From Thermococcus henrietii (GTDB lineage: Archaea > Methanobacteriota_B > Thermococci > Thermococcales > Thermococcaceae): DNA of 64,000 nt. The DNA lies in NCBI RefSeq assembly GCF_900198835.1, contig NZ_LT900021.1, positions 1,550,001 to 1,614,000 on the forward strand, written 5' to 3'. Below the pieces are notes generated by a model. The model had not been told where the DNA came from. It ran no database searches and worked only from the letters and a program-made list of their open reading frames with translations. Shown here one piece after another: positions 3,318 through 26,436 of this stretch (its first letter is position 1; each line of letters starts with the position of its first letter). Position numbers and translations under genes: made by a program.

Positions 3318-3373
3318 GATTTGCCTCCCTTTTTAGGTTTATCTCAAAGTTAAAACGACAGGAGAGAAAAAAG

Positions 3374-4966
3374 ATGCCAAAGAGAAGCCTTGAGGAGGAC
3401 TTCGTTCGGAGGCTCATCATCTCGATTTTCCTGATTGCCCTCCTTCAGGGCTTCGGGTTACTCATATCGTTCTTCATATTCCTGCCGTGGATTGAGAGAT
3501 TCCTGCGGGAAACAGGCCCTCGGAGACCAAGACCCGAACCAGTTCCCAGACCGGTGCCCAAGAAACCGCATGACAAGGACTCAAATCCCGGAATCTCCCT
3601 TACGGACGGGCTGATTTTTGAGGCGCCGAAAAAGCTAATCCGGGGAGCTGAGGCGCTGATAAAGGTTGGTTTCAGGAACAGGACAGGGAAAAGCCTTCGC
3701 GTCTCGATAGACCTGTCGGAGCTGGCCCTCTACGGAAAGCTGGAGAGGAGGACCCTTGACCTGTACCTCCTCCCTGGCGAGGAGAGGAGCGAGTACGTGC
3801 GCTTCGTGCCCTCGAAGGTTGGGAAGCACGCGCTTACCGTCCGCGTCCGCTCCGGGCCGTTTATGGGGAAGAAGGCCATTGAAATCGAGATCGCAGGGGA
3901 AAAAGCCGGGGGCAACGGGCTAGATGCCCTTCTGTCGAGGTACGAGAGGGTCGAGCAGATTGGAGAGGGCGGCTTTGGCAGGGTCTACCGCGCCCTGAGG
4001 GACGGCCGGTGGGTCGCGCTCAAGGTTCCCCACGTCCTCAACGAGAGAACCGGAAAGCTCTTTCTGCGCGAGGTTTCAATATGGCGCGAGCTGAGGCACA
4101 GCAACATAGTGAGGCTCCACGACGCCAACCTGACGCCTTACCCCTACATAGAGATGGAGCTCTGCGACCGGTCGCTCGAGGACCTGGAGAAGCCCCTTCC
4201 GGTGGAGCGCGTGGCTGAGATAGCCTTTGAGGTAGCGGAAGGCCTGAAGTACGCCCACTCGAAGGGTATAATCCACCGCGACCTGAAGCCAAGCAACGTC
4301 CTCCTCAAGGGCTCCAAGCCGAAGATAAGCGACTGGGGGCTTGCGAAGGTTCTGTTCGAGAGCGGAACCACGACGGTAACGGCGATGACGCCTTACTATG
4401 CCTCACCCGAGCAGATAAGTCCGTCTCGCTTCGGAGGGGTTGACGAGAGAACCGACGTATGGCAACTGGGCGTTCTCATGTACGAGCTCGCGACGGGGAG
4501 GAGGCCCTTCGAGGGGAGCGACTTCGTCGAGGTCGCCGGGAGGATAATCATGGAGGAGCCGCAGAAGCCGAGCGAGCTTAATCCAGAGGCGAAGCCCCTT
4601 GAAGGAGTAATCCTCCGCTGTCTGAGTAAGGAGAAGGAGAGGCGCTACGGAAGCGTTGAAGAGCTCCAGCGGGATTTGTCGGGAATCCTCGGCGGGAAGT
4701 ACCGGGAAGAGCTCAAGAAGAGCGTCGAGCCCTCGCGCTCGGCCTACTACGCGGGCCAGCTGTTCCTCCTCCACCTGCGGCTCGGGGACGCGAAGGAGGC
4801 CCTGAAGTACGCAAGGGACCTGCTGAGGTACGCAAGGGGGAGGGAGAGGGAAGAGCTGGAGAAGCTAATCGAACAGATTGAGCTGAGGGTTGAGGAGGGT
4901 CTTCCGGCCCCGCAGGAGCTCGTTGAGAAGGGTGAGGTGGTAGTTCATGAGGTTAGCGGGGTATGA
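3374..4966 (+). CDS. Membrane-anchored Ser/Thr protein kinase with Ig-like domain
   Basis: About 530 residues. A long hydrophobic stretch near residues 13-41 could be one span or a hairpin. A beta-rich Ig/CARDB-like domain follows (about 75-175), then a kinase: GEGGFGRVY (from about 197), VALK, HRDLKPSN (His301), DWG (320) and SPEQ. A C-terminal helical module ends in a VEEGLPAPQEL-type motif shared with the neighbouring kinases. ATG at 3374 is chosen because GGAG lies 9 nt upstream; an in-frame GTG at 3314 overlaps the previous stop and would add 20 residues. There is no second clear span between the Ig-like domain and the kinase, so both may lie on the same side of the membrane. The codons look more GC-rich than those of the flanking kinase genes. 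Confidence 0.88.
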   Translation: MPKRSLEEDFVRRLIISIFLIALLQGFGLLISFFIFLPWIERFLRETGPRRPRPEPVPRPVPKKPHDKDSNPGISLTDGLIFEAPKKLIRGAEALIKVGFRNRTGKSLRVSIDLSELALYGKLERRTLDLYLLPGEERSEYVRFVPSKVGKHALTVRVRSGPFMGKKAIEIEIAGEKAGGNGLDALLSRYERVEQIGEGGFGRVYRALRDGRWVALKVPHVLNERTGKLFLREVSIWRELRHSNIVRLHDANLTPYPYIEMELCDRSLEDLEKPLPVERVAEIAFEVAEGLKYAHSKGIIHRDLKPSNVLLKGSKPKISDWGLAKVLFESGTTTVTAMTPYYASPEQISPSRFGGVDERTDVWQLGVLMYELATGRRPFEGSDFVEVAGRIIMEEPQKPSELNPEAKPLEGVILRCLSKEKERRYGSVEELQRDLSGILGGKYREELKKSVEPSRSAYYAGQLFLLHLRLGDAKEALKYARDLLRYARGREREELEKLIEQIELRVEEGLPAPQELVEKGEVVVHEVSGV

Positions 4967-5101: not shown

Positions 5102-8100
5102 ATGAGAGCAATGAAGATGTTTGTACTAGTTTTTGTTCTTTTAGTATTCATTGTCTCGGAGAGTGTCCCTTGGGCTACTGCTGGAAACGTTAGCGTTTCG
5201 TGGTCCTCAAAGACACCAGGTACACTGATTGCCGTGTGTGAGACAATGAACCAGTTGATAATAGCTTCCGGGACCAGGTTGGAGTTTAGAGACCTCAAGG
5301 GGAACCTCCTGAATTCGAGGGATTTGGTGTATCCAATAACCGATGTCGAGCTTGAGCGTAACACATGGGGGTTGGATGTCTATGTTGCATCTGGAAAGTT
5401 CATCCATGTTTTCTATAAAAACGGGATGTACAAAAGGTTCACAGCACCAGACTCGATGAAAGTTCTGAAAGTAGAACCCTCCCCTTGGACCGACAGGGTT
5501 CTTCTCCTGCTGATGGATAACGGGCACTACTACGCGTATATAACGAACAAGAAGTTCTCAGAGGTCGTATTTAAGCTCGATTTGGGGACGGATAGGCCCC
5601 TTGTTGGAATGACCTACGATGCCAACTACCTCGCGGTAGCCCAGGGAAGCGAACTCCGCCTCGTTGAGGTTTCCGACGGAAAGGTCGTGTGGGCTAAAAA
5701 GCTCGGAGGAAGCGTTACTGCTCTCCTCGTTGTTGACCGTGGAGATGTGTACGTGGGAACCTCCGGGGATACACCGAAACTCCAGAAACTCAATGCTAAA
5801 ACTGGAAAAACCGAGTTCTCGGTGCCTCTGCTCGGTACTCCCGTTGCAGTATCCATCGACTGGGAGGGGAGCTATCTCGCCGTCGCTCAGAAACCTGGTA
5901 GGCTGTCTTTACTCTCCTCCTCTGGAAACGTTCTGTGGGAGGAGGATTTCTCCAAGGAATTCGGCGAGGTGGGTGATGTTGAGGTATCGAGGAGCGGTCG
6001 CTACATAGCGGCGACGTTCGGCGGTGGGACGTTGGTTCTTACCAACGGATTTGTGCCTCCGGCGAAGTTTAGTGTGAATGCCAAAAACGCCAAGTTGATT
6101 CCTGTGTTCACGGCACAGGTTAGGGGAAGCGTTTACGCTGTTGATGCGGACGATGAAGGGAAAGTTCTTGCGGTCATTAGTTACTATCCGAACCCTAAGG
6201 GGATCTTTCCGAATTATTTAAGTGACGTTGTCATTATGGACAGCTCCGGCAACGAGATTGGAAAAGACACTTTCGAGGGAATACTCAGAGATGTAGCAGT
6301 TAGCGGGAATGGAAAATACATAGCGGTTGTTGGCGACGACCACTATCTTCACGTGCTCAATATGAAAGGCGATGAAGTTGCGAACAGATTTTTTGACTTT
6401 TACAGTGGTGGATCATACACGGTCGCCATCTCAGAAAACGGTAATAGAATAGCAGTTGGAACCTTTGCAGGCTGGACCGATGATAACATGACGGAGGTGG
6501 CAAACGCCAGCATTTACTACTTCACGTTTGATGGCTCCAAAATCAATGAGGTATGGAAGAAGCCGTTTCCAAGCCCTACCTGGGGAACGAGGGTGTGGGG
6601 ACTCTCTATGGACTCTCAGGGAAACCACTTGGCAGTGAGTGTTGATGGTGGGTATAACAACACATTTATCCTTTCATCGAGCGGTAAACTCCTGTGGGAA
6701 AGTGGGGAAAGGGGATATATCCGTATCAGCAAGGATGGTGAAACCGTAGTATACCTGCCCCTCCCAGGAGATGGCATTATTCGCGTTCAGAAAATAACGG
6801 GGGATATTATCTGGACCAAGCCCGTATCTGGGGTTATAGGGGGCTTCAAGTTTTCAAGGGACTTCTTGGTGGCATGTCTACGAGATGAAAATAAATTAAC
6901 CAGCACTATCAAGATTTTCTCGATACAAAATGGCACAGAGATTCTTACAGCAACTTTTCCTGGATTAATAGTTGATTTCGCAGTCAGCAGGAACAACTAC
7001 CTCCTGATAGGCTTCGAGAACGGCACCGTAGAATACTACAAAATCGAGAGCACGGTTCCTCTGCCCAACGTTAGGGTCACACTGAAAATCAAGAGCTTCC
7101 CATCCAACGCGAGGGTCTTCGTGGACGGCTCATACAAGGGAAATACTCCCATAACCCTTGAGCTTGAGGAGGGTACTTATTCAATAGCCATCGAGAAGAT
7201 AGGCTACACCCGGTGGACCTCGACCGTTAAGCTCCTTGCGGGGGAGACGAAAACCCTCAACGTAACTCTTGAGAAGGTGGCCGCGGACACGGGAGCAGTC
7301 TTGGAGGTAACCTCCACTCCCGAGGGAGCAAAGGTCTATTTGAACAGGGAGTACGCGGGGGTTACGCCCCTCAACTTGACACTTGAAGCCGGCGACTACG
7401 AGGTAAAACTGGTTAAAGAGGGTTATCTGGACTGGGTAAAAACCGTCTCCCTAACTCCAGGCTCCTCGGAGAAGGTCAGTGCAGTTCTGAGCGAAGCTTA
7501 CGGCGTCCTTGAGGTTACCACGAGTCCAACTCAAGCCAAGGTCTATGTAAACGGGGATTACCAGGGCCTCTCACCTCTGAGGATAACCCTCACCCCCGGC
7601 AACTACACCGTGAGAATAGTCCGCGAAGGCTACGAGGATGAAGAGAGGAACGTTACAATCAAGGGTGGGGAAAAGACTTCCCTCGCATTGACGCTTGTTC
7701 CATTGAAGGGCTCCTCAGAAGGGCCAGTTGAAATAGCAGGGGTTACAATGAGCTCGAGCACGTTCTACTACATAGGTGCCGGTGTGGTTGCCGTTTTCGT
7801 TGCCCTCATGCTCTTCATCAACAGGCGCTTGAAGCAGATAGAGCAGAAGACCACCGCCATGACGGTTGATGAATTCGCCCCAAGGCCGGCCTCCCCTACT
7901 ACCTTTCCCCAGGAGCTCTCCAACAAATACACTGAAGTTGAGTTTATAGGCAGGGGCGGCTTCGCCAGGGTCTTCAAGGCCAAAAGGGCGAGCGATGGAA
8001 AGGTCGTCGCCGTAAAGGTTCCCATAAACCTAGACGAGGCTACTGGCAAGAGTTTCATCAAGGAGCTCCAGAACTGGGCCAACCTGAGGCATCCAAACAT

Positions 8101-8980
8101 CGTGGAACTCTACGATTACAATATCCTTCCCATCCCGTACCTTGAGATGGAATACTGTGACTGCAGTCTTAGGCGGGAGAAAAAGCCTATGGACGTAAAG
8201 AAAGCAGCATGGCTGATTTTCAACATAGCTGAAGGCCTGAAGTACGCCCACAATAAGAAGGTCGTCCACCGCGACCTGAAGCCGAGCAACATCCTCCTCA
8301 AAAACGGGGTTCCAAAGATAAGCGACTGGGGACTGAGCAAGGTCATGACGAGCAGCAGGAGCTCCACGGTTGCAGGCTTTACCCCGCTTTACGCCGCCCC
8401 AGAGCAGATAAGTCCGACAAACTTCGGGGGCACCGATGAGAGGACGGACATCTGGCAGTTGGGCGTGGTGTTCTACGAGCTCGTAACCGGAAATCTTCCA
8501 TTTGAGGCGAGCGATTTCGTGGAGCTGGCTTCAAAGATCACTACAGAGGACCCGGTTCTGCCGAGCCGGCTCAATCCAGAGGCGAAGGAAGTGGAGCACA
8601 TAATAATGAAAATGCTCTCCAAGGACAAGGAGCTCCGCTACAAGAACATGCTCGAACTCCAGAGGGACCTCGCGATTTACCTCGGCATGTCCCTCAAGGA
8701 GGAGCTCAAAAAGAGCACGACTGTGAGGGACAGGCACAGGATTGTTTCGTATCTCGGCGACCTTCTGCTGATGAGCATGAAAACCGGAAATAAGATCGAG
8801 GCATATAAATACGCAACGGATATCGTGAACTACGTTACAGGAGAACTGGGAAATGAGTTCAGAAACCTTGCAAAGTACCTGCAAATAATAACAGAGGAGG
8901 GCCTTCCGATTCCGGATGAACTCATTCAAAAAGCCGAGATTCTCATCCACAAGGTCAAGCTCGGCTTTGAAAGGCTCTAG
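5102..8980 (+). CDS. Receptor-like Ser/Thr kinase: signal peptide, beta-propeller, three PEGA repeats, TM, kinase
   Basis: 1292 residues; ATG at 5102 follows a strong GGGAGGGGG site. Order: signal peptide (about 1-28), a long WD40/PQQ-like beta-propeller (about 30-640) with repeated short blocks such as GKYIAVVGDD, three PEGA repeats (about 658-870, each with a KVY-N/DG-YxGxTP core), one membrane span (about 886-906), then a kinase with GRGGFARVF, VAVK, HRDLKPSN (His1056), DWG (1075) and APEQ. It ends in the shared helical module (EEGLPIPDEL). The likely role is transmembrane signalling from an extracellular propeller/PEGA sensor to a cytoplasmic kinase; the ligand is unknown. The gap to the next gene is 9 nt, so they are probably co-transcribed. 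Confidence 0.92.
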   Translation: MRAMKMFVLVFVLLVFIVSESVPWATAGNVSVSWSSKTPGTLIAVCETMNQLIIASGTRLEFRDLKGNLLNSRDLVYPITDVELERNTWGLDVYVASGKFIHVFYKNGMYKRFTAPDSMKVLKVEPSPWTDRVLLLLMDNGHYYAYITNKKFSEVVFKLDLGTDRPLVGMTYDANYLAVAQGSELRLVEVSDGKVVWAKKLGGSVTALLVVDRGDVYVGTSGDTPKLQKLNAKTGKTEFSVPLLGTPVAVSIDWEGSYLAVAQKPGRLSLLSSSGNVLWEEDFSKEFGEVGDVEVSRSGRYIAATFGGGTLVLTNGFVPPAKFSVNAKNAKLIPVFTAQVRGSVYAVDADDEGKVLAVISYYPNPKGIFPNYLSDVVIMDSSGNEIGKDTFEGILRDVAVSGNGKYIAVVGDDHYLHVLNMKGDEVANRFFDFYSGGSYTVAISENGNRIAVGTFAGWTDDNMTEVANASIYYFTFDGSKINEVWKKPFPSPTWGTRVWGLSMDSQGNHLAVSVDGGYNNTFILSSSGKLLWESGERGYIRISKDGETVVYLPLPGDGIIRVQKITGDIIWTKPVSGVIGGFKFSRDFLVACLRDENKLTSTIKIFSIQNGTEILTATFPGLIVDFAVSRNNYLLIGFENGTVEYYKIESTVPLPNVRVTLKIKSFPSNARVFVDGSYKGNTPITLELEEGTYSIAIEKIGYTRWTSTVKLLAGETKTLNVTLEKVAADTGAVLEVTSTPEGAKVYLNREYAGVTPLNLTLEAGDYEVKLVKEGYLDWVKTVSLTPGSSEKVSAVLSEAYGVLEVTTSPTQAKVYVNGDYQGLSPLRITLTPGNYTVRIVREGYEDEERNVTIKGGEKTSLALTLVPLKGSSEGPVEIAGVTMSSSTFYYIGAGVVAVFVALMLFINRRLKQIEQKTTAMTVDEFAPRPASPTTFPQELSNKYTEVEFIGRGGFARVFKAKRASDGKVVAVKVPINLDEATGKSFIKELQNWANLRHPNIVELYDYNILPIPYLEMEYCDCSLRREKKPMDVKKAAWLIFNIAEGLKYAHNKKVVHRDLKPSNILLKNGVPKISDWGLSKVMTSSRSSTVAGFTPLYAAPEQISPTNFGGTDERTDIWQLGVVFYELVTGNLPFEASDFVELASKITTEDPVLPSRLNPEAKEVEHIIMKMLSKDKELRYKNMLELQRDLAIYLGMSLKEELKKSTTVRDRHRIVSYLGDLLLMSMKTGNKIEAYKYATDIVNYVTGELGNEFRNLAKYLQIITEEGLPIPDELIQKAEILIHKVKLGFERL

Positions 8981-8989
8981 GTGGTCTAA

Positions 8990-10102
8990 ATGAGATGCAC
9001 CCACCAGTACAGGCATTCGATTAAGGAGTGTCCGCGCGAGGCGGAGGAGCTTGGCCTCTGCATTTTCCACCTTCCATTCAGTGGGAAGAACTTTGAAGAG
9101 GCAGAGCTAAGCGGGGAAGACCTGGAGGAGGCATACCTCAGCGGGGCAAATCTGAGGGGGGCAAACCTCAGCAACGTCAACCTCCGCTATGCCGATGTAA
9201 GTGAAGGTAATCTAAGCGGGGCAAACCTTGAATGGGCCTCTTTGGTGGGTGTTGATTTAAGCAGTGCCAAGCTGGACGGTGCGAACCTGACAAACGCTGA
9301 TATACGTAATGCTGACTTAACGGGAGCCAACCTAGACGAAGCAACCCTGAGCTTTGCCAACCTTGAGGGTACGAGCCTTATTAGGGCGTCTCTCAATGGA
9401 GCCGAGCTCTACGGTGCAAGTCTGAATGGCACAAATCTCCTTGGCGCCGACTTCAGGGGGGCAAGGCTCTATGGGGCTGAGTTTGATGGGGCAAAAAACG
9501 TTGAGCACGCGATTTTTGACGACATCGCAGTTGAGGAAAAAGAAGGAGATGAATTCAGAAAGAAAAAGGACTTTGAAAGGGCATACGATTCCTACTCCAA
9601 GGCTCTTGAAGTTTACCTTGACCTGAAGAGAATTTTTAGGACCAAGGGGCTCTACGACAGGGCCTCGGTTTACTCAGTCGGCGAGTGGCGCGTTCGTGGT
9701 AAGCTTCAGTTAATAGCATCACGGGTTCAGAATCATAGTTCAACCAGATTTCTGCCCCTAACGGGAGGTGGAAAACTGGGTGTTGTTGAGGGAACGCTCA
9801 GGTACGTTACAAACAGGTTGTACGGGATTACATCCCTTTACGGAGAAAGCCCACTGAGAGTTCTCTTGACGACGGTGACGATAATACTGGCTTACGCACT
9901 GATTTTCTGTGTGAGTGGAACAATCCGTGTGGGTTCCCCAAGGGACTGCCTCTACTTTAGCATTGTGACGTTTACAACCGTTGGATACGGGGATATAACC
10001 CCCGTCCCCTCCCATAGACTACTCGCGGCGAGTGAAGCCTTTATCGGTGCGTTCATGCTTTCGTTCTTTGTGGTTGTGATGAGCAGAAAACTTATCAGAT
10101 AA
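8990..10102 (+). CDS. Pentapeptide-repeat protein fused to a K+-channel pore domain
   Basis: 370 residues. The N-terminus carries a Cys/Cys/CxxH pattern that could bind zinc (Cys3, Cys14, then CIFH). Pentapeptide repeats of the A(N/D)LxG type run from about residue 35 to 170 and should form a right-handed quadrilateral beta-helix. A charged helical linker follows. The C-terminal part has two hydrophobic helices flanking a pore loop with TVGYGD, the K+-channel selectivity signature (Ion_trans_2 type). A pentapeptide domain on a two-helix channel suggests a gated or localised channel. It is 9 nt after a kinase and directly before the Vps4-like ATPase, so it belongs to the same transcription unit. 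Phosphorylation by the kinases is speculation. Confidence 0.88.
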   Translation: MRCTHQYRHSIKECPREAEELGLCIFHLPFSGKNFEEAELSGEDLEEAYLSGANLRGANLSNVNLRYADVSEGNLSGANLEWASLVGVDLSSAKLDGANLTNADIRNADLTGANLDEATLSFANLEGTSLIRASLNGAELYGASLNGTNLLGADFRGARLYGAEFDGAKNVEHAIFDDIAVEEKEGDEFRKKKDFERAYDSYSKALEVYLDLKRIFRTKGLYDRASVYSVGEWRVRGKLQLIASRVQNHSSTRFLPLTGGGKLGVVEGTLRYVTNRLYGITSLYGESPLRVLLTTVTIILAYALIFCVSGTIRVGSPRDCLYFSIVTFTTVGYGDITPVPSHRLLAASEAFIGAFMLSFFVVVMSRKLIR

Positions 10103-10129
10103 ATGAGAAAGTTAGGAGGAGGTGTAAGA

Positions 10130-11329
10130 ATGCCAGTTGACCTTTCAGGACCTTTAATGGCCGCCTTCAAGAAAGCGAAAAGGGAATTCGAAGAAGCCGT
10201 AAAGAAAGGAAATAACGAGGTTGCCAAGAAGAAGGCTCTGGAGTGTGCCCGCATACTGAGGCAGCTCGCCAACTATGACGAGTTCAGCAGGGAGAGTTAT
10301 CTTAGAAAGGCCAAGAAGTGGGAAGCCATCGCAAGGGACGTTGAAGCCGGCCGCTACGGGATAAAGAGGAACAAGCCGATAAAAGAGGGTGGGAACCAAA
10401 GGAGAAGCGGGAACTTCGAAGAGAATGGTGAAGATGATGTATTCAAACAGTACGTAGAGGGCCTCATTGCAAGGTCAAACGTTAAGTGGAACGACATAGG
10501 TGGTCTTGAGGAAGTTAAGAGACTCATGATGGAGACCATTGTTATCTCAGCCCTACAAAAACCCCAGTCAGTACAGCCTTGGAAGGGAATCCTTCTCTTC
10601 GGCCCGCCTGGAACCGGTAAGACCCTCCTCGCGAGCGCGGCAGCTGGAAGCTTAAACGCGACCTTCTTCTCTGTCAAAGCCAGCAACGTCCTAAGCAAGT
10701 ACTTCGGCGAATCCGCGAAGATAATCTCGGCCCTCTACGAGGTGGCTAGAGAGAAGGCCCCCAGTATAGTGTTCATGGATGAAATAGATGCCCTGACAAC
10801 GAAGCGCTCCGGTGACCAGAGTGAGGCCAGCAGGAGGATGCTGTCAACACTGCTGACCGAACTCGACGGCTTCCAGGACAAGGGCAATGACGTGCTCGTC
10901 CTAACGCTGGCGGCGACCAACACCCCCTGGGACCTTGATGAAGCGGTTCTGTCAAGGTTTCCACGGAGGATTTACGTTCCGTTACCGGACCAGAAAGCCA
11001 CGAAGGAGATAATCAAAATCAACACGCGTGGGCTCGACACAAGCAGACTTGACTTGGACGCGATAGCCGAGGAGAGCGTCAGACGCCGGTACTCGGGAAG
11101 GGACATCAAGAACCTCTGCCAGGAAGCAATATGGAATATGATACGTGAGGAGAACAGGGACCTTCACAAGCTCGCCGAGCTTCCATTCCACGAGCTGAAG
11201 AAGCGCTCGCTCAGAACGAGGCCTCTTGAGATGAGGGACTTCGAAGAGGCGTTCAAGAAGATTAAGAGCCCGCTGACGAGGAAGGAGGTCGAGAGGTACG
11301 AGAAGTGGGCGGAGGAGTTTGGGGGATGA
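10130..11329 (+). CDS. Vps4/CdvC-like AAA ATPase with MIT-like N-terminal domain
   Basis: 399 residues from ATG 10130, chosen because GGAGGAGGTG lies just upstream; an ATG at 10103 lacks this. The first 72 or so residues form a helical bundle with the spacing of an MIT domain (FKKAKREFEEA, ECARILRQL, RKAKKWEAIA). A linker and one AAA module follow: WNDIGGLEEVK, Walker A GPPGTGKT (158-165), Walker B VFMDEIDA (Glu218), sensor-1 AATN (260-264) and arginine fingers in SRFPRR (about 276-280). MIT plus a single AAA domain is the Vps4/CdvC layout. In ESCRT systems this enzyme unfolds ESCRT-III polymers. An ESCRT-III-like gene closes the same island. It is translationally coupled to the next kinase by an ATGA overlap. 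Other meiotic-clade AAA proteins remain possible. Confidence 0.85.
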   Translation: MPVDLSGPLMAAFKKAKREFEEAVKKGNNEVAKKKALECARILRQLANYDEFSRESYLRKAKKWEAIARDVEAGRYGIKRNKPIKEGGNQRRSGNFEENGEDDVFKQYVEGLIARSNVKWNDIGGLEEVKRLMMETIVISALQKPQSVQPWKGILLFGPPGTGKTLLASAAAGSLNATFFSVKASNVLSKYFGESAKIISALYEVAREKAPSIVFMDEIDALTTKRSGDQSEASRRMLSTLLTELDGFQDKGNDVLVLTLAATNTPWDLDEAVLSRFPRRIYVPLPDQKATKEIIKINTRGLDTSRLDLDAIAEESVRRRYSGRDIKNLCQEAIWNMIREENRDLHKLAELPFHELKKRSLRTRPLEMRDFEEAFKKIKSPLTRKEVERYEKWAEEFGG

Positions 11330-14300
11330 ACTCCACCAAGAGTAAAACATGCTGTATACCTTGGGAAAACACATTGGAAGTTATATCCGTCCTTGTTATC
11401 CTATTGTTGGCTTTATTGAATGCTAACTTTGCATTAGGACAGCCTGCATACGAATTCTGGAAAGAGATACCCCTCCCAAGCCTCCAAGAGAGACTAACTT
11501 ATCACTATGATTACAACAATGGTTTCATCCTCATTGGCAGCAACAGAACGGTAATGCTTTACTCAGAAAAAGGCACAAAGTTGCTGGATATTGACTTGCC
11601 TCCCAATGACAACGGGCACATAATAAGCGTTGGATTATCACCGGATGGGAAGTACTTCGCAGTTGGAACTGATGACCACGGCCTTTACGTCATCGATTCA
11701 AAGGGAAAAGTTCTCTGGAGGAGCCATGAACCTAATCAGTGGGTTAGTGCGATTGCTATTGACCATGGTCTCATCGCGATAGGCAACGGGAACACCCTTG
11801 AGCTCTGGAATGTCAGTGGGAGTCTACTCTGGGCTCAAGAAGTTGGTTCTTGGATATACGACGTGAAGTTTATGTACTGGACTGGTCAAACGTACATAAT
11901 AGTTGGAACGTGGGGAATTGGAAAAGGATACAATACTAATCTTTTAGCGTTTGATATATCGGGTAATATTAAATGGAAAACAAAGCTTGAAAACGGAAAC
12001 GTGGAGAGCCTTGCCGTGAACGATGCCACTGGGATGATTGGGGCCGTTGTTATGTCTCAAGGTAACTCAGGGAGCTGGTACTGCAATATTTACGTGCTCA
12101 GTTTTGGAGGGGCCATTCTACACAGGATAAACTGGACGACTAACCTACACACCAGTAAGATAGCATTTCGCGAAGATGGAGCCTACCTCGGGGTGCCCGG
12201 TTACTTCGGTAGAATGGCAGAGGTTGATGTTTCCAGCGGGAAAGTGATTCCCACTAAGATTCTAGCCTCAAATGTTCTTTATTTCTCGGGTTCAATGGTT
12301 GTTACCTCAGAAAAAGATACGGTATACATCTACAGGACTTCACTTGGTCAGAACTCAACGGAAACTTACTCCTACACCCCTTGGAGCCTGCGGTTTAACT
12401 ATACTCCAAGAGCCGTTGCGGTATCCGACAACGGCTGTTCCGTGGTCGGTACAGAAATGCCAGATGGAAGCGTCTACTATGTGCTTAATGGGAAAATACT
12501 GTGGAGCCACCCGCTGTCGTCAAGTGTTTACGACGTCGCGATAACCGCCAACGGGTCGAGAGTCTACGCAGTAGGTGGAGATGTCCGAGCGTTTTCACGG
12601 AACGGAACACTTCTCTGGAGATACGACGTGTCGACAACAGTCACGAGCGTTGATTCAACGCCCAATGGAAAGTATGTAGTGGCAGGAGCGATTGGTGGGG
12701 TGTACCTCTTTAATTTCAAGGGGGACCCTCTGTGGAAGGTACCCCTAACTGCAGAGGACACGATAACAGTCCACGTCGCCGTAAGCAACGACGGGAATGT
12801 TGTGGCAACAGTAACTACGAGAAATGGCGGGTATGTTTGGTACATTGAAAATGGTCGCGTTGTGTGGAAAAAACACGTAACCGATGACATGTTATTAAGC
12901 GCCGACATTTCCCCAGACTCAAACTACATTGCAGTTGGAGGAAGTGACGGGAGGGTATACGTCCTCAATAATAAGGGGGAGCTCGTAAAAGAGTCGATTG
13001 TAGGAACGGTTAGAGCGGTTGAATTTTTCAAACAGGGAAACCGGCTTTACCTAGCAGTAAGGGCGAACGGAGTTAAAGTATTCACTGTTCCCAATCTCAG
13101 AAAAATCCTGACAATACCTGCCGAGGAGTACCCCTCCTCACCATCAAGACCTATGGACGTGTCCAATGACGGAAGTTATATACTTCTCGCTGACAGTGAT
13201 GGTACCGTCAGCTTCCGGAGTTTACCTGACCTTAGAGAAGGTACTCTAATAATAACCTCAACGCCTTCCAATGCGCAGATACTTCTCAATGGAACGTACC
13301 TGGGAACAACTCCGATGAAAATAACAGTCAAACCTGGTAAATACGTTCTCGTGATTATGAAAACTGGATACAAGAACCATACTGAAGTCTTAGACGTGGA
13401 GTCCAATAGTGTTATTACAAGGAACGTGACTCTCACTCCCCTTGTAGGATATGTAACAGTTACATCAACACCAGAGGACGCCAAAGTTTACATTGATGGA
13501 AGATACGTGGGCATGACGCCACTAGAGAATTACAGTATACCCAGTGGAACCCATGAGATAATACTTAGAAAGAGTGGGTATAAGGAGTACACAAAAAAGG
13601 TACTCATTACAGCTGGAGAGGGAGTAACTCTATCCGTAGCTCTCGTCATGGCAACTCCTTCCCTACAATCCCAAACATCAACAAACACCAGCTCATCCCA
13701 TGTATTGGCAACAATGACTTCATCAAAGGCCATTCCGACAAAAGAGACAACCTCCATAACCGTGGGTTCCTATTCAAAAAGAGACAGGAACACATCCCCA
13801 AACTCATACGCACTCATTCTGTTTCTAAGTTTGGTGGTCCTTGGTGGAGTTACCGTTGGAGCATGGCGCGTGAAGTCTCGGAAGAAAAAGCACACACAGG
13901 GGACATCTATTGTGGGATTTCCATTGGAGCTCCTCGACAAGTATGAACCCCTCGAGTTCCTCGGTGAGGGCGGCTTCGCCAAAGTCTTCAAGGTTAGAAG
14001 GAAATCCGACGGGAAAATCATAGCCCTTAAGGTTTCCCGCCTCGACGAGAAGGCAAAGCGTTTCTTCCTCAAGGAGGTTAAGGCTTGGCGTCTGCTTGAC
14101 CACCCAAACATCGTCACGCTCTACGACGCCTACGCTGAACCGTTGCCTCATCTCGAGCTGGAGTTTGTGGACGGGGTAAAACTCAATGGCGAAACCATTA
14201 GAGACCTTGGAAGATACCCGAAGCCAGTTGAGGAAAGTGAGGCACTCCACTTTATCAAAGGTATCGCCAGTGGTTTAGCTCACGCGCACTCCAAGGAGGT

Positions 14301-15069
14301 CTATCACCGCGACCTTAAGCCCCAGAACGTCCTCATAACAAGCGATTTAACGCCGAAAATAACCGACTGGGGATTGGCCAAGGTTGGAGCCGTATCAACA
14401 ACTGCTACAACCACTAAGGGACTAACGCTTCTCTACGCCGCGCCAGAACAGCTTGACGAAGGAACATATGGGCATACCGACCACAGAACGGATATTTATC
14501 AGCTCGGACTGATATTCTACGAACTTTTAACCGGAAAGCTTCCCTACACAGGAACCACCCCCGCGGTGGTCATGGCTAGGGTGATAAATCCAGCGGTGAA
14601 GCCCAAGCCACCGAGTCACTACAACAAAGCTTTGGCGAAGTACGATGGAATCTTCGAGAAGCTCCTCGCTAAGAACAAGGAGGACCGCTACCAGTCCGTT
14701 GAGGAGTTTTTAGCGGATTTGGAGCTCATAGAAAAGATAGAAGAGGAGAGAAGGACCCTTGAGAGGGAGATAGAAAAGACGAAGACCACCATGAGTCTCA
14801 CAACAAATAGCAAGGAACTCAAAAAGCTCATGCGCCAGCTTGTTGAACAGCTGAGCAGAAATGCCATACTACATGCCCAGCTCAACGACAAAGCTGGACT
14901 CATCAACGCGCTTGAGGATTTGAAGGCGTTCTCGAAGGAACATAGAGATGAGCTTGAAAGTGCAATAGACCAGTTCAAGATGATGATGCAGGAGAGCGTG
15001 CCAATAAGCAAGTCCACGCTGGACGAGCTGAAGGTCCTCCTGCACAAGGTTCAGAGGGAAGTTGAATGA
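11326..15069 (+). CDS. Receptor-like Ser/Thr kinase: beta-propeller, two PEGA repeats, TM, kinase
   Basis: 1247 residues from ATG 11326, which overlaps the previous stop (ATGA) and has GGAGGAG upstream; a GTG at 11305 is less likely. A signal/anchor segment lies near residues 18-38. A WD40/PQQ-type propeller follows (about 40-635), then two PEGA repeats (about 639-775), a Ser/Thr-rich linker, a membrane span (about 826-845) and a kinase with GEGGFAKVF, IALK, HRDLKPQN (His994), DWG (1014) and APEQ. The C-terminus is a long helical module with coiled-coil character (about 1140-1247) ending in a VPISKSTLDEL motif. It is a paralogue of the 5102-8980 kinase in domain order, but its kinase is closer to the 15380 and 18459 kinases. 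Confidence 0.92.
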   Translation: MNSTKSKTCCIPWENTLEVISVLVILLLALLNANFALGQPAYEFWKEIPLPSLQERLTYHYDYNNGFILIGSNRTVMLYSEKGTKLLDIDLPPNDNGHIISVGLSPDGKYFAVGTDDHGLYVIDSKGKVLWRSHEPNQWVSAIAIDHGLIAIGNGNTLELWNVSGSLLWAQEVGSWIYDVKFMYWTGQTYIIVGTWGIGKGYNTNLLAFDISGNIKWKTKLENGNVESLAVNDATGMIGAVVMSQGNSGSWYCNIYVLSFGGAILHRINWTTNLHTSKIAFREDGAYLGVPGYFGRMAEVDVSSGKVIPTKILASNVLYFSGSMVVTSEKDTVYIYRTSLGQNSTETYSYTPWSLRFNYTPRAVAVSDNGCSVVGTEMPDGSVYYVLNGKILWSHPLSSSVYDVAITANGSRVYAVGGDVRAFSRNGTLLWRYDVSTTVTSVDSTPNGKYVVAGAIGGVYLFNFKGDPLWKVPLTAEDTITVHVAVSNDGNVVATVTTRNGGYVWYIENGRVVWKKHVTDDMLLSADISPDSNYIAVGGSDGRVYVLNNKGELVKESIVGTVRAVEFFKQGNRLYLAVRANGVKVFTVPNLRKILTIPAEEYPSSPSRPMDVSNDGSYILLADSDGTVSFRSLPDLREGTLIITSTPSNAQILLNGTYLGTTPMKITVKPGKYVLVIMKTGYKNHTEVLDVESNSVITRNVTLTPLVGYVTVTSTPEDAKVYIDGRYVGMTPLENYSIPSGTHEIILRKSGYKEYTKKVLITAGEGVTLSVALVMATPSLQSQTSTNTSSSHVLATMTSSKAIPTKETTSITVGSYSKRDRNTSPNSYALILFLSLVVLGGVTVGAWRVKSRKKKHTQGTSIVGFPLELLDKYEPLEFLGEGGFAKVFKVRRKSDGKIIALKVSRLDEKAKRFFLKEVKAWRLLDHPNIVTLYDAYAEPLPHLELEFVDGVKLNGETIRDLGRYPKPVEESEALHFIKGIASGLAHAHSKEVYHRDLKPQNVLITSDLTPKITDWGLAKVGAVSTTATTTKGLTLLYAAPEQLDEGTYGHTDHRTDIYQLGLIFYELLTGKLPYTGTTPAVVMARVINPAVKPKPPSHYNKALAKYDGIFEKLLAKNKEDRYQSVEEFLADLELIEKIEEERRTLEREIEKTKTTMSLTTNSKELKKLMRQLVEQLSRNAILHAQLNDKAGLINALEDLKAFSKEHRDELESAIDQFKMMMQESVPISKSTLDELKVLLHKVQREVE

Positions 15070-15379: not shown

Positions 15380-17704
15380 ATGAGCAGAAATCCATCTCTC
15401 CTGTTGCTCCCCGTGGTTTTCTTAATTATATTGCCGTACGTCAGTGCAACAACGATTGGGATAGACCTCTCTCACGGCGAGAACCCAAACGGCCTCACGT
15501 CAGTGGTCTACAAAAATCAGACGCTCGCTCCAGGAATAGTTGAAATCTTAACCCAATATAACTTCGTCTACTTTGGGAATGAGAGTTACCAGGATGAGCT
15601 GGGAATTCGCTGGCTGGGCAGGTCAATAACTCCGGGCCTGCTGGAAAACGTTGACGTCCTCATACTCGGCCAGCCAACGGCAAACCTCTCAAGCGCCGAA
15701 ATCTCAGCCATAAGGGAGTGGTTCTACTCCGGAGGGAAGGTTCTGTGGGTTGCCGGTGATTCGGACTATGGAAACGGTGCCAAGACCCAAGAGATAGTGA
15801 ACGGCCTGCTCAAAGCCCTTGGAGCGCCCCTACGCCTTGACCTGTGCTCCGTTGAGGACCCCGTGAGCAACGCCGGCGGGAAGGCATACCGCCTCATAGC
15901 CTACGACAGACCGAGCAATGATACCCCCTACCGCCTGCTTTTGATTCAGGGAGTAGCTCATGGCATCCTCGCGCACGGGCCCGGGCCGGTGGCGCTCTTC
16001 GCAAACGGCACTTGGAAGCCCCTGAGGGATGGGAACAAGCCTTCGGGAGTTTACATCATACTCAGGACGAGCAAAAATGCCCAAATCGTTGAGAACAGCG
16101 CACCCTCTGCAAAGGCTTACAAGGCCGGAGAAAAGGGTGAATTCCCGATAGTGGTGGCATGGGTATGGAATTCGGGCAACAAAAGGAGTGTTCTGGTAGT
16201 CAGCGGCGAGACGCCCGTTGGAGGCTACATTCCAATGTGGGTTAGTCAGTATTACGGCATCAAGCTCGACGGGCCAACCTTTGTCTCGAACGTAATCCAC
16301 TGGGGAATCACCGTTGCGTCTGGATCCCTTGGGGCTTCAGGTCCGAGCTCATCGACGTCCGCACAGGAAGTATCAAACAACCCTCTTGCCCAACCTCCGA
16401 GCTCCCTGCCAGAGACAGGAACGACAGGAAAGGGCCCGTCTTCACAAGTCTCCTACCTCGCAATTGGAGGTATTCTAGTATTCCTCTTCGTTGGACTTGT
16501 CTTCCTGAAGAGCAGGAGCGGAAGTGAGAATAGGGGCAACCGCACCATCCCCGGCTTTCCTCCTGGGCTCTTGGACAGGTACGAGCCACTCGCGTTCCTT
16601 GGCGAGGGCGGCTTCGCCAAGGTCTTCAAGGTCAAACGCAAAAAGGACGGCAAAACAGTCGCCCTAAAAGTCCCGCATCTAACAGATAAGTCAAGAAAAT
16701 CCTTCATTAGGGAAGTTCAGGCCTGGAACATGCTGGAGCATCCAAACATAGTAAAGCTCTACCGTGCAGAGGAGGAGCCAGTACCATACCTCGAGATGGA
16801 GTTCGTCGAAGGGGCTGAGGTTGATGGGAAGCTCGTTAGAACTCTTGAGGAACTGCCAAAGCCCGTTGATGAGACCACTGCTTTAGAACTCATCAGAGGC
16901 ATCGCAGAGGGATTGGAGCACGCGCACTCGAAGGGTATAATCCACAGGGACTTAAAACCCGGAAACATCCTCCTGAAGGCTGACTTAACGCCAAAGATAA
17001 CCGACTGGGGACTCGCGAAAATAGGAACACATTCAACGACCACCACCTCGGGGGTAACGGTTCTCTACGCCGCGCCGGAGCAGCTTGACCCCGAAACCTA
17101 CGGGCGCACCGACCACAGGACGGACATCTACCAGCTCGGCCTAATCTTCTATGAACTCCTGACAGGAAAACTGCCCTACGGAGGGAAGGGCCCCGCAAGT
17201 GTAATCGCAAAGATTCTCAACCCAGAAACCAAGCCAAAACCGCCGAGTGCCGTTAGGCCAGAGCTTGCGAAGTACGATGGGCTCTTCGAGAAGCTGCTGG
17301 CGAAGAGGAAGGAAGACCGCTACGGAAGCGTTGAGGAGTTTCTGGAAGACCTTAAGCTCTTGGAGAAGCTTGAAGGAGAAAGGACCGACCTCAGAGGGCA
17401 GATTGAGGAGCTCAAGAAAACCATCCAAGTAACGACGGACAGGTCGGAGGTTCAGAGGCTCGTCAGGAAACTCGTTGAAGGACTTGGGAGGAACGCGGTC
17501 CTTTCGGCGAGGCTCAACGACAAGGCAGGCCTGATTAGTGCGCTTGAGGAGCTCAAGGAGTTCACTCGGGAAGAAAGGGGAGAGGTTGAGCGGGCGATTG
17601 AAACCGTCGAGCTCCTCCTGAGGGAGGGCCTGCCGATTTCCCGGGAACTCGTTGAGAGAGTGGAAGTCCTTGTTGATAGGATTAAACGGGAGGTGGAGAG
17701 ATGA
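15380..17704 (+). CDS. Membrane Ser/Thr kinase with GATase1/DUF4350-like ectodomain
   Basis: 774 residues; ATG at 15380 follows GGTGGTGGG. A signal peptide (about 1-24) precedes an alpha/beta domain (about 25-310) that looks like a class I glutamine-amidotransferase/DUF4350 fold: TIGIDLSHGENP, VDVLILGQP, then IREWFYSGGKVLWVAGD. No catalytic Cys-His pair is obvious, so it is probably a binding domain. A low-complexity linker and a span (about 355-377) lead to a kinase with GEGGFAKVF, VALK, HRDLKPGN (His522), DWG (542) and APEQ, then a helical C-terminal module ending in EGLPISREL. The stop overlaps the start of the PP2C gene (ATGA), so kinase and phosphatase are co-translated. Confidence 0.9.
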   Translation: MSRNPSLLLLPVVFLIILPYVSATTIGIDLSHGENPNGLTSVVYKNQTLAPGIVEILTQYNFVYFGNESYQDELGIRWLGRSITPGLLENVDVLILGQPTANLSSAEISAIREWFYSGGKVLWVAGDSDYGNGAKTQEIVNGLLKALGAPLRLDLCSVEDPVSNAGGKAYRLIAYDRPSNDTPYRLLLIQGVAHGILAHGPGPVALFANGTWKPLRDGNKPSGVYIILRTSKNAQIVENSAPSAKAYKAGEKGEFPIVVAWVWNSGNKRSVLVVSGETPVGGYIPMWVSQYYGIKLDGPTFVSNVIHWGITVASGSLGASGPSSSTSAQEVSNNPLAQPPSSLPETGTTGKGPSSQVSYLAIGGILVFLFVGLVFLKSRSGSENRGNRTIPGFPPGLLDRYEPLAFLGEGGFAKVFKVKRKKDGKTVALKVPHLTDKSRKSFIREVQAWNMLEHPNIVKLYRAEEEPVPYLEMEFVEGAEVDGKLVRTLEELPKPVDETTALELIRGIAEGLEHAHSKGIIHRDLKPGNILLKADLTPKITDWGLAKIGTHSTTTTSGVTVLYAAPEQLDPETYGRTDHRTDIYQLGLIFYELLTGKLPYGGKGPASVIAKILNPETKPKPPSAVRPELAKYDGLFEKLLAKRKEDRYGSVEEFLEDLKLLEKLEGERTDLRGQIEELKKTIQVTTDRSEVQRLVRKLVEGLGRNAVLSARLNDKAGLISALEELKEFTREERGEVERAIETVELLLREGLPISRELVERVEVLVDRIKREVER

Positions 17705-18465
17705 GGCTAATACTGCCCGAAAATCCATGCGTGGACTTCAGCGGGGCCGGAACTGACTTCGTTTACGGGATAACCCACATTGGAGGACGAAAGCACAACG
17801 AGGACGGCCTGCTCATCATGAAGCTCCCCGACGGATACCTACTTGCCGTTGCGGACGGACTGGGCGGCCACAACGCCGGGGAAGTCGCTTCTAGGCTGGC
17901 CCTGGAAACCCTTGCGGGGGTCTTTGGGGAGGAGTACGTTGAAGGCCTTGAAGAAGACCTTCTCGCGATTCTCCTGAGGAAGACCCACGAAGTTGCCCAC
18001 TCCGTTGTTAGGGAGCGCGCAAAGGGGCCGCTTGAAGGGATGGGGACGACCCTCGTCTCGGCCGTGGTTAGGGGAAGGACTGTTATCGTTGCCAACACCG
18101 GCGACAGCAGGGCGTACCTGGTTTCCAGGGGGAGGCTCGTCGCGAGGACGCTCGACCATTCACCACTTCAGGAGCTCGTCCTTATGGGGCAGGTAAGCGA
18201 GGAGGAAGCCATGTACCATCCACTCAGGAACAGGGTGAGTTCTGCAATTGGGCGGCGTCTGATGGTTGACCTCTACCGCTGGGAAGCCGGACCCGGCCAC
18301 GTTCTCCTGCTCAGCACGGACGGCCTTCACGACTACGTTCCAAAGGAGGAAATCCTGCGGGCGCTCACCCCGGGGAAAACGGCACGTGACCTCGCCAAAA
18401 CCCTCGTGGAAAGGGCCCTGCCTGCCACTGAAGACAACGTCACGGTGGTGGTGTGGAGATGGTGA
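17701..18465 (+). CDS. PP2C-family Ser/Thr protein phosphatase
   Basis: 254 residues. PP2C motifs in order: RKHNEDG, VADGLGGHNAG (metal-binding Asp/Gly), GMGTTLVSA, ANTGDSRAYLV, a DHSPLQEL segment, STDGLHDYV and EDNVTVVVW. These are the metal-coordinating Asp positions of bacterial and archaeal Stp/PrpC-type enzymes, which remove phosphate from Ser/Thr in an Mn2+/Mg2+-dependent way. It is soluble: no signal peptide or span. It overlaps the upstream kinase stop (ATGA) and the downstream kinase start (18459), so it is embedded between two kinases. It is very probably the phosphatase that reverses signalling by the six kinases of this island. Confidence 0.95.
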   Translation: MRLILPENPCVDFSGAGTDFVYGITHIGGRKHNEDGLLIMKLPDGYLLAVADGLGGHNAGEVASRLALETLAGVFGEEYVEGLEEDLLAILLRKTHEVAHSVVRERAKGPLEGMGTTLVSAVVRGRTVIVANTGDSRAYLVSRGRLVARTLDHSPLQELVLMGQVSEEEAMYHPLRNRVSSAIGRRLMVDLYRWEAGPGHVLLLSTDGLHDYVPKEEILRALTPGKTARDLAKTLVERALPATEDNVTVVVWRW

Positions 18466-20345
18466 CTAAGAACATGGGGAGTCTCGTAGTGATAGCCCTG
18501 CTCCTCGTGGCAATTTTGGCGTCCTCTACACCGGCCGCGGCCAGCAAAAGCACCCCGGTGGTTAACATCGACACAACGGCTCCGGGAGTTAGCGTTTACC
18601 TCGATGGTAAATACGTCGGAGTGACTCCTATACACGGGCTTGAGGTCTCGGAGGGAATTCATACAATTCGACTCGAAAAAAACATGTATGGAACAGTCAT
18701 TGTTCTCTTCAATGCGGTCCCCGGCAGAAACATTACACTAAACGTCCCTATGGTGTTCAATTTTAAGGTTGGAGAAAATCCCATTCTTAACGTGAAAACA
18801 AGCCCTCCCGGTGCGGAAATAGAGCTGAACGGTGTTATCATAGGCACGAGTCCAGTATACAACTATACACTCCTTCCAGACATGAAATACCAACTCCAGA
18901 TTAACCTGAGAGGGTACAATCCAGAGAACCTCACACTGAACCCAGATATGCACACTTTGTACTACGTCTATATCACGCTGACTCGGGAACTCACAACGAA
19001 TTCCCCGGGCTCCCCTGAAGAAACCTCTATCACTTCAAAGCTGTTGGGTCTGGCTCTTCTGATTGCAGTTGGGGTTGTAGCGGTTGCCATAGGCCGTAAA
19101 AGGCACAGAAAAGAAAAGAGGCCTCCCTCCCCACGGCAACCCAAAGAAAGCGTATCCAAGCCCTTGGAAGGCTTCCCCCAGGAGCTCCTAAACAGATATG
19201 AGCCACTCGAGTTCCTTGGCGAGGGCGGCTTCGCCAAGGTCTTCAAGGTCAAACGCAAAAAGGACGGCAAAACAGTCGCCCTAAAGGTCCCAAGAATCGA
19301 CGAGAAAACCAGTAAAACCTTCCTCCGCGAGGTTTCAACGTGGTTCCAGCTCAATCATCCCAACGTCGTCAAGCTCTACGACGCGGACATTTTACCAGTT
19401 CCTCACCTTGAGATGGAGTTCGTTGAAGGAGCCGAAGTTGGCGAAAAGCTCGTTAGAACACTTGAAGAACTGCCTAAGCCCGTTGATGAGGAAACCGCAC
19501 TGAGACTCATAAAGGGCATTGCGGAAGGCCTAAAACACGCCCACTCGAAAGGCATCGTTCACCGCGACTTAAAGCCTGGAAACATCCTCCTGAAGGCTGA
19601 CTTAACGCCAAAGATAACCGACTGGGGACTCGCAAAAATCGGAACGATGAGCTCGGGAAGGAGCGTGATGGGCTACACCCCACTCTACGCAGCCCCCGAA
19701 CACCTTATGCCCAGCAGGTTCGGAAGCACCGACACCAGAACAGACATTTGGCAACTGGGAACGATTTTCTACGAGCTTCTCACAGGTAGGGTTCCCTTCG
19801 AGGGCTACACATACGAGGAGGTCTTCGGCAAGATAACCGACGAAAACTACCGCCATAAGCCGCCCTCCGACTTCAACCTCGCATTGGCAAAGTACGATGG
19901 GCTCTTCGAGAAGTTGCTGGCGAAGAGGAAGGAAAACCGGTACGGAAGCGTTGAAGAATTCCTGATGGACCTTGAGAAGCTCGAAGAAAGCGAGAAGCGG
20001 AAGCAGGAGCTCGAGTCCCAAGTTGAGGAGCTGAAGAAAACGCTCGCAAGAAGCGTGGAAGCCCTGAAGAAGAGCAAGACAGCTGAGGAAATCAGAGAGA
20101 ACAGCCGGCTCGTTGTCCAGACTCTCTCAAAGCTTGCCCTGGCTTACGCGGAGCTCAACAGGAAGGCGGAGCTTCTCAACACCCTAAGCGACCTGAAGTT
20201 CTATACAACCCAGCACAGGGAAGAACTCGGAAGGGCAATTGAAGCCCTTGAGCTCATGATTAGAGAAAACCTGCCCGTAAGAGAGGACTTCATTGAAAGG
20301 CTCAAGGTGCTTCTTCACAAGATAGAGCGCGAAAACGGGGTGTGA
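18459..20345 (+). CDS. Membrane Ser/Thr kinase with two PEGA repeats
   Basis: About 628 residues. ATG 18459 is preferred over GTG 18453; both overlap the PP2C stop. A signal peptide (about 1-28) is followed by two PEGA-type repeats (about 33-175; VSVYLDGKYVGVTP and AEIELNGVIIGTSP). A span lies near 194-212. The kinase has GEGGFAKVF, VALK, HRDLKPGN (His368), DWG (388) and APEH in place of APEQ. The C-terminal module is predicted coiled-coil, ending in ENLPVREDF. Its kinase-coding DNA shares a perfect 75-bp block with the 15380 kinase (19211-19285 against 16594-16668), pointing to recent duplication or gene conversion. The ESCRT-III-like gene starts 3 nt after its stop. Confidence 0.9.
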   Translation: MVTKNMGSLVVIALLLVAILASSTPAAASKSTPVVNIDTTAPGVSVYLDGKYVGVTPIHGLEVSEGIHTIRLEKNMYGTVIVLFNAVPGRNITLNVPMVFNFKVGENPILNVKTSPPGAEIELNGVIIGTSPVYNYTLLPDMKYQLQINLRGYNPENLTLNPDMHTLYYVYITLTRELTTNSPGSPEETSITSKLLGLALLIAVGVVAVAIGRKRHRKEKRPPSPRQPKESVSKPLEGFPQELLNRYEPLEFLGEGGFAKVFKVKRKKDGKTVALKVPRIDEKTSKTFLREVSTWFQLNHPNVVKLYDADILPVPHLEMEFVEGAEVGEKLVRTLEELPKPVDEETALRLIKGIAEGLKHAHSKGIVHRDLKPGNILLKADLTPKITDWGLAKIGTMSSGRSVMGYTPLYAAPEHLMPSRFGSTDTRTDIWQLGTIFYELLTGRVPFEGYTYEEVFGKITDENYRHKPPSDFNLALAKYDGLFEKLLAKRKENRYGSVEEFLMDLEKLEESEKRKQELESQVEELKKTLARSVEALKKSKTAEEIRENSRLVVQTLSKLALAYAELNRKAELLNTLSDLKFYTTQHREELGRAIEALELMIRENLPVREDFIERLKVLLHKIERENGV

Positions 20346-20348
20346 GTT

Positions 20349-20897
20349 ATGAAGTTCTGGAAATCCAAGGAGGAAAAGGAAATAGAGCGGAAGATAAGGG
20401 CTAGAAAAGCGAAAATGGCCCTAAAACAGTACATAACCAACCTCGAAGCCTTAAAGCGCCGGGTCTTTCTCCAGGGAAAGGAAGCAGCGAAGCTCGGCGA
20501 CGAAGAGCTGTTGAGGAGGAGTGCAGTGAAATACCTCACACTCGAGAACAGGATAAAGCAGGCGAAGAGACTCCTCCTCCTGATGGAAGAAGCCGAGATT
20601 CAAAGGGAGCTCGTTAAGGTCTCTGGAGAGTTTCTCCGCTTCAGCAGGGACATCGTTGAGAGCATTGCGGAGGGACCCGGAGCAGAGGACGTTGCCAAGA
20701 TGCAGGTCGAGTTCGAGAAAGCGATGACAAAGGTGGAGAGCCTCGATGAGGCTCTGAGTTCCATGCTAGACGTAACGAGCGAAAGCATCCTGAGCGGAAA
20801 CTTTGACGAAGAAACGATAAAAGAAGCGGAGGCGTTCTTCGACGTAGAACCCTCCGGAGAGAGGCTCAAAGAGATTGAGAAGGCTATGAGGGCTTAG
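20349..20897 (+). CDS. ESCRT-III (Snf7/CdvB)-like protein
   Basis: 182 residues, predicted almost entirely helical. Features match ESCRT-III: a short N-terminal MKFWKS that could insert in membrane, a basic first helix (about 12-47), GDEELLRRSAVKYLTLENRI resembling helix 2 (50-70), then ESCRT-III-like MEEAEIQRELVKVSGEF (79-95). An acidic C-terminal half follows with SLDEALSSMLDVTSESI (131-147), like the Vps2/Snf7 SMxxML region, a FDEE helix, and a terminal LKEIEKAMR that resembles an MIM1 peptide for an MIT domain. It is 3 nt after a kinase and lies in the same island as the MIT-AAA ATPase. No search was run; other coiled-coil families cannot be excluded. Its 3' end overlaps a convergent amidohydrolase by 14 nt. 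Confidence 0.75.
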   Translation: MKFWKSKEEKEIERKIRARKAKMALKQYITNLEALKRRVFLQGKEAAKLGDEELLRRSAVKYLTLENRIKQAKRLLLLMEEAEIQRELVKVSGEFLRFSRDIVESIAEGPGAEDVAKMQVEFEKAMTKVESLDEALSSMLDVTSESILSGNFDEETIKEAEAFFDVEPSGERLKEIEKAMRA

Positions 20898-26337: not shown

Positions 26338-26362
26338 TCGCGCAGGCGAAGTTTGTAACTGG

Positions 26363-26436
26363 TGGGCCCGCGGGGATTCGAACCCCGGACCTCCACCTTG
26401 TAAGGGTGGCGTCATAACCATCTAGACCACGGGCCC
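26363..26436 (-). tRNA. tRNA-Val (anticodon TAC)
   Basis: The cloverleaf is read on the minus strand: acceptor GGGCCCG pairs with CGGGCCC, discriminator A. The anticodon loop CTTACAA on a CACC/GGTG stem gives TAC (valine). The T arm GGGGTTCGAATCCCC is intact. CCA is not encoded. A TATA box lies about 25 nt upstream at 26459-26469. Confidence 0.95.

Follow-up and report, generated by a model that had tools for sequence, protein, structure and literature searches.

ESCRT-III proteins bend and cut membranes in human cells. The closest described relative of the locus reported here is the main-clade archaeal ESCRT system (Makarova et al., mBio 2024; PMC10936438), and the main text of that survey names Thermococcales among its hosts. 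A 2021 review had described Thermococcales as lacking ESCRT-III and their mechanism of vesicle budding as unknown (PMC10117752), and in a 2022 study euryarchaeal Cdv proteins showed no interaction motifs (PMC8970359); the 2024 survey, in its main text, already places ESCRT-III in some Thermococcales (PMC10936438). That main text states neither the number of ESCRT-III genes in Thermococcales loci nor whether the protein named E3x here, encoded at 20349-20897 of the window, is counted among them (PMC10936438). The Thermoplasmata minimal system consists of a Vps4, an ESCRT-III and the beta-barrel protein arCOG07400.

The island that ends with E3x resembles the main-clade system, as set out in the main text of the survey, in combining Vps4, ESCRT-III, membrane Ser/Thr kinases with a C-terminal helical domain, a phosphatase, a winged-helix (wH)/coiled-coil protein and a Cas2-like protein (PMC10936438), and its Vps4, ESCRT-III, kinase and phosphatase genes lie together in one locus. 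The wH and Cas2-like proteins were tentatively equated with arCOG09748 and arCOG08177 by size, order and the descriptions given in that text, and homologues of both lie beside Vps4 in distant archaea. The island is therefore a main-clade system, a kind of system already known. Beyond the main-clade account in that text, its three ESCRT-III proteins fall into two classes, and in some relatives a second Vps4 abuts E3x; the new elements are thus a third ESCRT-III, of a class distinct from the other two, and its paired Vps4. Also added here is that the E3x class recurs in Thermoplasmata beside a matching set of genes.

Gene content of the island

The window (the whole 64-kb stretch analysed, from a 2.16-Mb genome) carries a tightly packed co-directional run of genes, all on the + strand, encoding six membrane Ser/Thr kinases, a pentapeptide-repeat ion-channel protein, the Vps4-type ATPase AAA_A, a PP2C phosphatase and, as the last gene, E3x. 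Four of the kinases were assigned by similarity to the other island kinases, namely those at 138..3317 (the first island gene inside the window), 3314..4966, 11305..15069 (with a large repeat-rich N-terminal part, its start overlapping the end of AAA_A) and 18453..20345 (an open reading frame of PEGA type directly upstream of E3x). The kinase at 5102..8980 combines a beta-propeller with PEGA repeats (Pfam PEGA 2.3e-54, Pkinase 2.1e-48, PQQ_2 4.3e-13) and that at 15380..17704 matched Pfam Pkinase at 4.3e-48. The pentapeptide-repeat protein with its ion-channel domain occupies 8990..10102 (Pfam Pentapeptide 4.2e-54, Ion_trans_2 1.1e-13), AAA_A 10103..11329 and the PP2C-type phosphatase 17701..18465 (Pfam PP2C_2 9.2e-18). 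Neighbouring genes mostly overlap or are separated by a few bases, with gaps of 135 and 310 bases before the kinases at 5102 and 15380, and only 3 bases separate the last kinase gene from the start of E3x.

Upstream of the window (L059:13984-17652) lie genes for a Cas2-like protein (L059:13984-14553), a coiled-coil/wH-type protein of 637 residues (L059:14486-16399) and the helical proteins E3b and E3a, of 198 and 205 residues respectively. The last two are ESCRT-III-like and are encoded at L059:16442-17652 (G000:C1:1547442-1548652), some 1.3 kb upstream of the first window position. They are related to each other (hhalign 98.7%) and ranked first when 1254 Thermococcus open reading frames were searched with a crenarchaeal CdvB profile. 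With these two present, the view of E3x as the island's sole ESCRT-III was rejected. Downstream of the island, the sole tRNA gene of the window, a tRNA-Val (TAC), is found after about 5.5 kb at 26360-26436 on the - strand, and IS607-type transposon-like genes, a MerR-like serine recombinase followed by a TnpB-like protein, were recognised by eye from translations at window 29074-31102.

Homology and predicted fold of E3x

The E3x open reading frame runs from ATG to TAG at exactly 20349-20897 (+) and encodes 182 amino acids, beginning MKFWKS, with SMLDVTSESI at residues 138-147 and ERLKEIEKAMRA at the C-terminus (171-182); the position, the start and the internal SMLDVTSESI sequence are all as given in the preliminary description of this DNA. 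Its 3' neighbour is read towards it, and the two genes share 14 bases at the end of E3x. The gene is evidently real, since in other Thermococcus genomes the family retains 75-96% identity. A basic N-terminal and an acidic C-terminal half had also been described, and net charges of +11 for residues 1-91 and -13 for residues 92-182 bear this out; a split of this strength arose in 300 of 100,000 shuffles of the protein's own residues.

E3x alone scored 14.6 bits against Pfam Snf7, under the cut-off of 27.3, in a match spanning most of the domain. All 18 aligned family members matched the same profile, likewise below cut-off (best E 2.9e-4). Snf7 was also run blind over the six-frame translations of 396 archaeal genomes; in several Thermococcaceae genomes it selected the E3x locus (lowest E 6.3e-6), the places found being identified as E3x by comparison with E3x locations obtained separately. 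The link to accepted family members is made by homologues. BLASTP aligned E3x with a Thermoplasmata protein (L177:11872-12525:-) over 152 amino acids at 30% identity (69 bits), and that protein exceeds the Pfam Snf7 cut-off (29.8 vs 27.3 bits); a six-frame genome search with the E3x profile found the same protein at E 6.9e-23. A second Thermoplasmata protein, L151, whose gene lies some 5 kb away from one of Vps4 type, scored 37.7 bits to Pfam Snf7, and when it was used to search the 1254 Thermococcus open reading frames the first 12 matches listed were all E3x (E 3.5e-8 for the E3x of the window). The Snf7 domain of E3x is thus recognised through its homologues, by 18 of 18 family matches and a 30%-identical protein over the cut-off, and not from the single sequence. 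Outside Thermococcaceae, no closer relatives of E3x than these two Thermoplasmata proteins were found.

A tree of 57 ESCRT-III proteins placed E3x and both Thermoplasmata proteins in one clade (support 99/97), separate from E3a/E3b (100/99), crenarchaeal CdvB (99/96) and Asgard-type class B (99/99). The group names used here (Thermoplasmata, crenarchaeal, Asgard-type) were assigned by eye from gene content and sequence features. E3x was not placed inside either Asgard-type class, and the deepest branches of the tree are poorly supported (43/77). The Asgard-type class B profile ranked E3x first among the Thermococcus open reading frames (19.1 bits, E 5.5e-5 for the E3x of the window), whereas with the crenarchaeal CdvB profile E3x scored 2.8-3.8 bits, indistinguishable from unrelated sequences among the 1254. 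Single-sequence searches with E3x (phmmer against PDB; NCBIfam) returned nothing useful, a profile search of PDB sequences found no ESCRT-III, and Pfam scans of E3x and its homologues gave no match to PspA_IM30. No link between E3x and E3a or E3b was found by hhalign, because the Thermococcus alignments are too uniform (Neff about 1.3).

Structure prediction, suggested as a check in the preliminary description, gave an AF2 model from seven sequences with a pLDDT of 85 and helices at 7-49, 52-106, 112-149, 154-163 and 170-181. The all-helical reading made earlier, with helices to about residue 105, agrees with the first hairpin of this model (7-49, 52-106). The predicted helix order follows the plan of an extended ESCRT-III subunit, a long alpha1-alpha2 hairpin followed by helices 3-5. 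When the model was compared by Foldseek with 350,542 PDB chains, the top match was Sulfolobus islandicus CdvB (probability 0.96, E 0.15), with CdvB2 and CHMP2A-CHMP3 further down the list and BAR and designed helical bundles close behind CdvB; in the viral library BFVD the top match was a Megaviridae Snf7 protein. The matches are weak (E-values 0.15 and 0.23, TM-scores about 0.42) and neither E-value is significant alone; the telling point of the model comparison is the appearance of ESCRT-III as first match in both libraries. E3x resembles crenarchaeal CdvB and CdvB1-2 in predicted helix plan, charge split and best PDB fold match, but falls in a separate tree clade, and neither a winged helix nor a MIM2-type proline motif was seen in it.

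The designation of window 20349..20897 (+) as an ESCRT-III/Snf7-family gene draws on Pfam Snf7 matches in homologues, a Thermoplasmata homologue above cut-off, the AF2 fold and the tree. The earlier reading of an ESCRT-III-like protein gains support from homology beyond mere shape, from the predicted fold, and from the gene neighbourhood and co-occurrence described below; that E3x is a real but diverged archaeal ESCRT-III relative is well supported.

The C-terminal helix and the Vps4-type ATPases

The C-terminal helix of E3x (residues 170-182; 20856..20894, + strand) is a MIM1-like candidate tail, as indicated by the AF2 helix at 170-181 (block pLDDT 90-91) and by motif counts. The linker before it varies in length among 18 family members, while I176, E177 and M180 are invariant and L173 nearly so. 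Mean conservation of the last 13 residues is 0.71 vs 0.90-0.95 in the core, the hydrophobic positions being those that are kept. The preliminary description had proposed a possible tail resembling a MIM1 motif here: the helix and its conserved hydrophobic positions stand, and a pattern L-x2-I-x3-M-[KR] fits 18/18 E3x tails vs 0/22 E3a/E3b tails, but the canonical pattern used for comparison (L-x2-R-L-x2-L-[KR]) fits 0/18, and strict MIM1 identity was rejected. A related register, L-x3-L-x2-L-[KR], occurs in 11/28 tails of the Asgard-type set. The C-terminal helix is hence reminiscent of MIM1 in eukaryotic and Asgard ESCRT-III proteins (Snf7 and Vps2 classes) while departing from its canonical form, and judged from its residues is best termed MIM1-like, not MIM1. 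Canonical MIM1 is confined to the Vps2-like group; since not every ESCRT-III carries the motif, its absence does not exclude membership of the family.

An MIT-like AAA ATPase had been noted about 9 kb upstream of E3x. AAA_A does end 9.0 kb upstream and is a Vps4-type ATPase, with Pfam AAA (1e-40) and Vps4_C (7.3e-8) both over their cut-offs and a Foldseek match to katanin/Vps4/spastin. Its putative MIT domain is seen as a predicted N-terminal three-helix bundle (15-35, 38-58, 63-81; block pLDDT mostly 82-92) that is barely recognisable by sequence: Pfam MIT touched one of 13 N-terminal domains of this type (E 0.026), and a PDB profile search with the AAA_A N-terminal domain found no MIT. Beyond the bundle the model is poor (mean pLDDT 57), and many homologues begin at MPVDLSGP, about 30 bases after the AAA_A start used here. 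Binding of the E3x tail to this MIT-like domain is put forward as a hypothesis.

Two further Vps4-type ATPases were identified. AAA_B is a second Vps4 present in 11 genomes, every one of which has E3x, and lies directly behind or overlapping E3x in the loci inspected. AAA_C (L049:10661-11743; G000:C1:1640661-1641743) is a solitary Vps4-type ATPase without ESCRT neighbours and is probably the 'solo Vps4' of the literature. In the AAA tree AAA_C, on a long branch, grouped with E3x-linked AAA_B at 100/100, from which a tentative derivation of AAA_C from the AAA_B lineage may be suggested, subject to the long branches. E3x as the missing partner of AAA_C was rejected, the occurrence of AAA_C across 94 genomes being independent of E3x (p 1.0); it is likewise independent of AAA_A (p 0.79).

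Distribution and proposed function

Among 94 Thermococcaceae genomes E3x was found in 30, AAA_A in 38 and E3a/E3b in 39. Every E3x genome also has AAA_A (30/30) and E3a/E3b (30/30), with Fisher p-values of 1.5e-17 and 6.6e-17 that ignore kinship and overstate the association because related genomes are not independent. Some of the AAA_A genomes without E3x are fragmented assemblies, but at least two (G073 and G081) are well assembled and carry AAA_A and E3a/E3b while lacking E3x, so E3x is facultative and not essential to the system. A compact island in G012 has the gene order Cas2-like, wH, E3b, E3a, kinase, AAA_A, phosphatase, E3x. In Thermoplasmata, the E3x-class protein of G559 is apparently the sole ESCRT-III of a minimal locus, compared with one of three in the kinase-rich locus of Thermococcus. 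The Thermoplasmata locus of G855, unlike the minimal one, carries a larger set comprising a kinase, a phosphatase, Vps4, wH, Cas2-like, an E3x homologue and two further helical proteins. This locus (L177:1266-13137) resembles the Thermococcus island, though the main text of the 2024 survey calls Thermoplasmata systems minimal.

It is likely that E3x is a genuine, diverged ESCRT-III subunit of the main-clade system, working broadly as follows. E3x, E3a and E3b would use their basic alpha1-alpha2 hairpins to assemble on the inside of the cell membrane, and the wH and Cas2-like proteins of the island may recruit them there. The membrane-spanning kinases, with propeller and PEGA domains predicted to face outward, would control assembly together with the PP2C phosphatase. 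AAA_A, joined in 11 genomes by AAA_B, would use its N-terminal MIT-like domain to grip the conserved helix at the C-terminus of E3x, and the Vps4-type ATPase would then remodel or dismantle the polymer, leading to membrane budding, sorting or sealing and not to cell division. Polymerisation, membrane binding, tail-MIT binding, kinase control and the biological output are here inferred by analogy with ESCRT systems. Since FtsZ is held to be the division protein of Thermococcales (PMC10117752), vesicle formation, sorting or repair would be likelier than cytokinesis. Weighing against the model is an unpublished result quoted in the same review, that disruption of Vps4 homologues of unspecified type in T. 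kodakarensis left vesicle output unchanged (PMC10117752).

The patchy presence of E3x (30/94 genomes) would also suit a stress-triggered envelope response, that is a membrane repair or a defence/cell-death module in which the kinases sense damage and the ESCRT proteins seal or sever the membrane. The marked differences between islands in kinase complement and sizes, together with the pentapeptide ion-channel protein, give the look of an accessory, diversifying sensor island; against this, searches other than PADLOC recognised none of the island genes as phage, toxin or defence-associated, and main-clade systems are proposed in the main text of the survey to sort proteins and form vesicles (PMC10936438). 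Such a response is considered doubtful as the role of the island. A second reading accepts the ESCRT-III ancestry of E3x but makes it a non-polymer protein, either an adaptor linking the kinases to Vps4 or a cap or nucleator of E3a/E3b filaments. Its gene follows a kinase gene immediately in the window and in several relatives, apart from E3a/E3b; it is absent from some genomes that retain AAA_A and E3a/E3b; and its alignment has a mean column identity of 88% vs 83% for E3a and 77% for E3b, as a protein with several partners might. E3x nonetheless retains all the predicted ESCRT-III core helices and the basic/acidic split, and in G559 a protein of its class is the only ESCRT-III seen near Vps4, as suits a working polymer subunit, and an adaptor or cap is unlikely. 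Convergence of coiled coils, with an unrelated helical protein lying near a Vps4-type ATPase by chance, might be argued from the sub-threshold Snf7 score of E3x alone, the non-significant Foldseek E-values and the sizeable bias terms in its profile scores, but it is strongly disfavoured and very improbable given full-length alignment with two Thermoplasmata proteins above the Snf7 cut-off, the six-frame match at E 6.9e-23, the supported clade and the recurrence of the gene neighbourhood in that distant class.

A broader proposal, possible rather than probable, is that E3x represents a conserved third archaeal ESCRT-III class, shared by Thermococcales and Thermoplasmata, with a MIM1-like tail and its own Vps4 (AAA_B), beside an untailed CdvB-like pair. 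If so, a split of tasks between ESCRT-III subunits with and without a tail, under the gating of membrane kinases, would not be confined to eukaryotes and Asgard archaea, and the Thermococcales 'solo Vps4' would be a stray offshoot of the Vps4 lineage linked to E3x. The locus offers a concrete three-subunit set, a candidate tail for Vps4 recruitment and a natural pattern of presence and absence in a genetically tractable genus, which together make kinase-controlled ESCRT function testable in an archaeon that divides with FtsZ.

Several variant loci were also observed. In G036 an E3a-like sequence lies within a 641-residue open frame (L099:8396-10321), in a genome where no AAA_A was detected, and may be a fusion or a remnant. 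Two E3x islands are present in G002 (L066, L067), one with AAA_A and AAA_B and the other with wH and Cas2-like genes and no AAA_A in the stretch read. Kinase numbers and island sizes differ widely among relatives, and in G015 (L056:8539-17652) a protein of 3037 residues is encoded between AAA_A and E3x.
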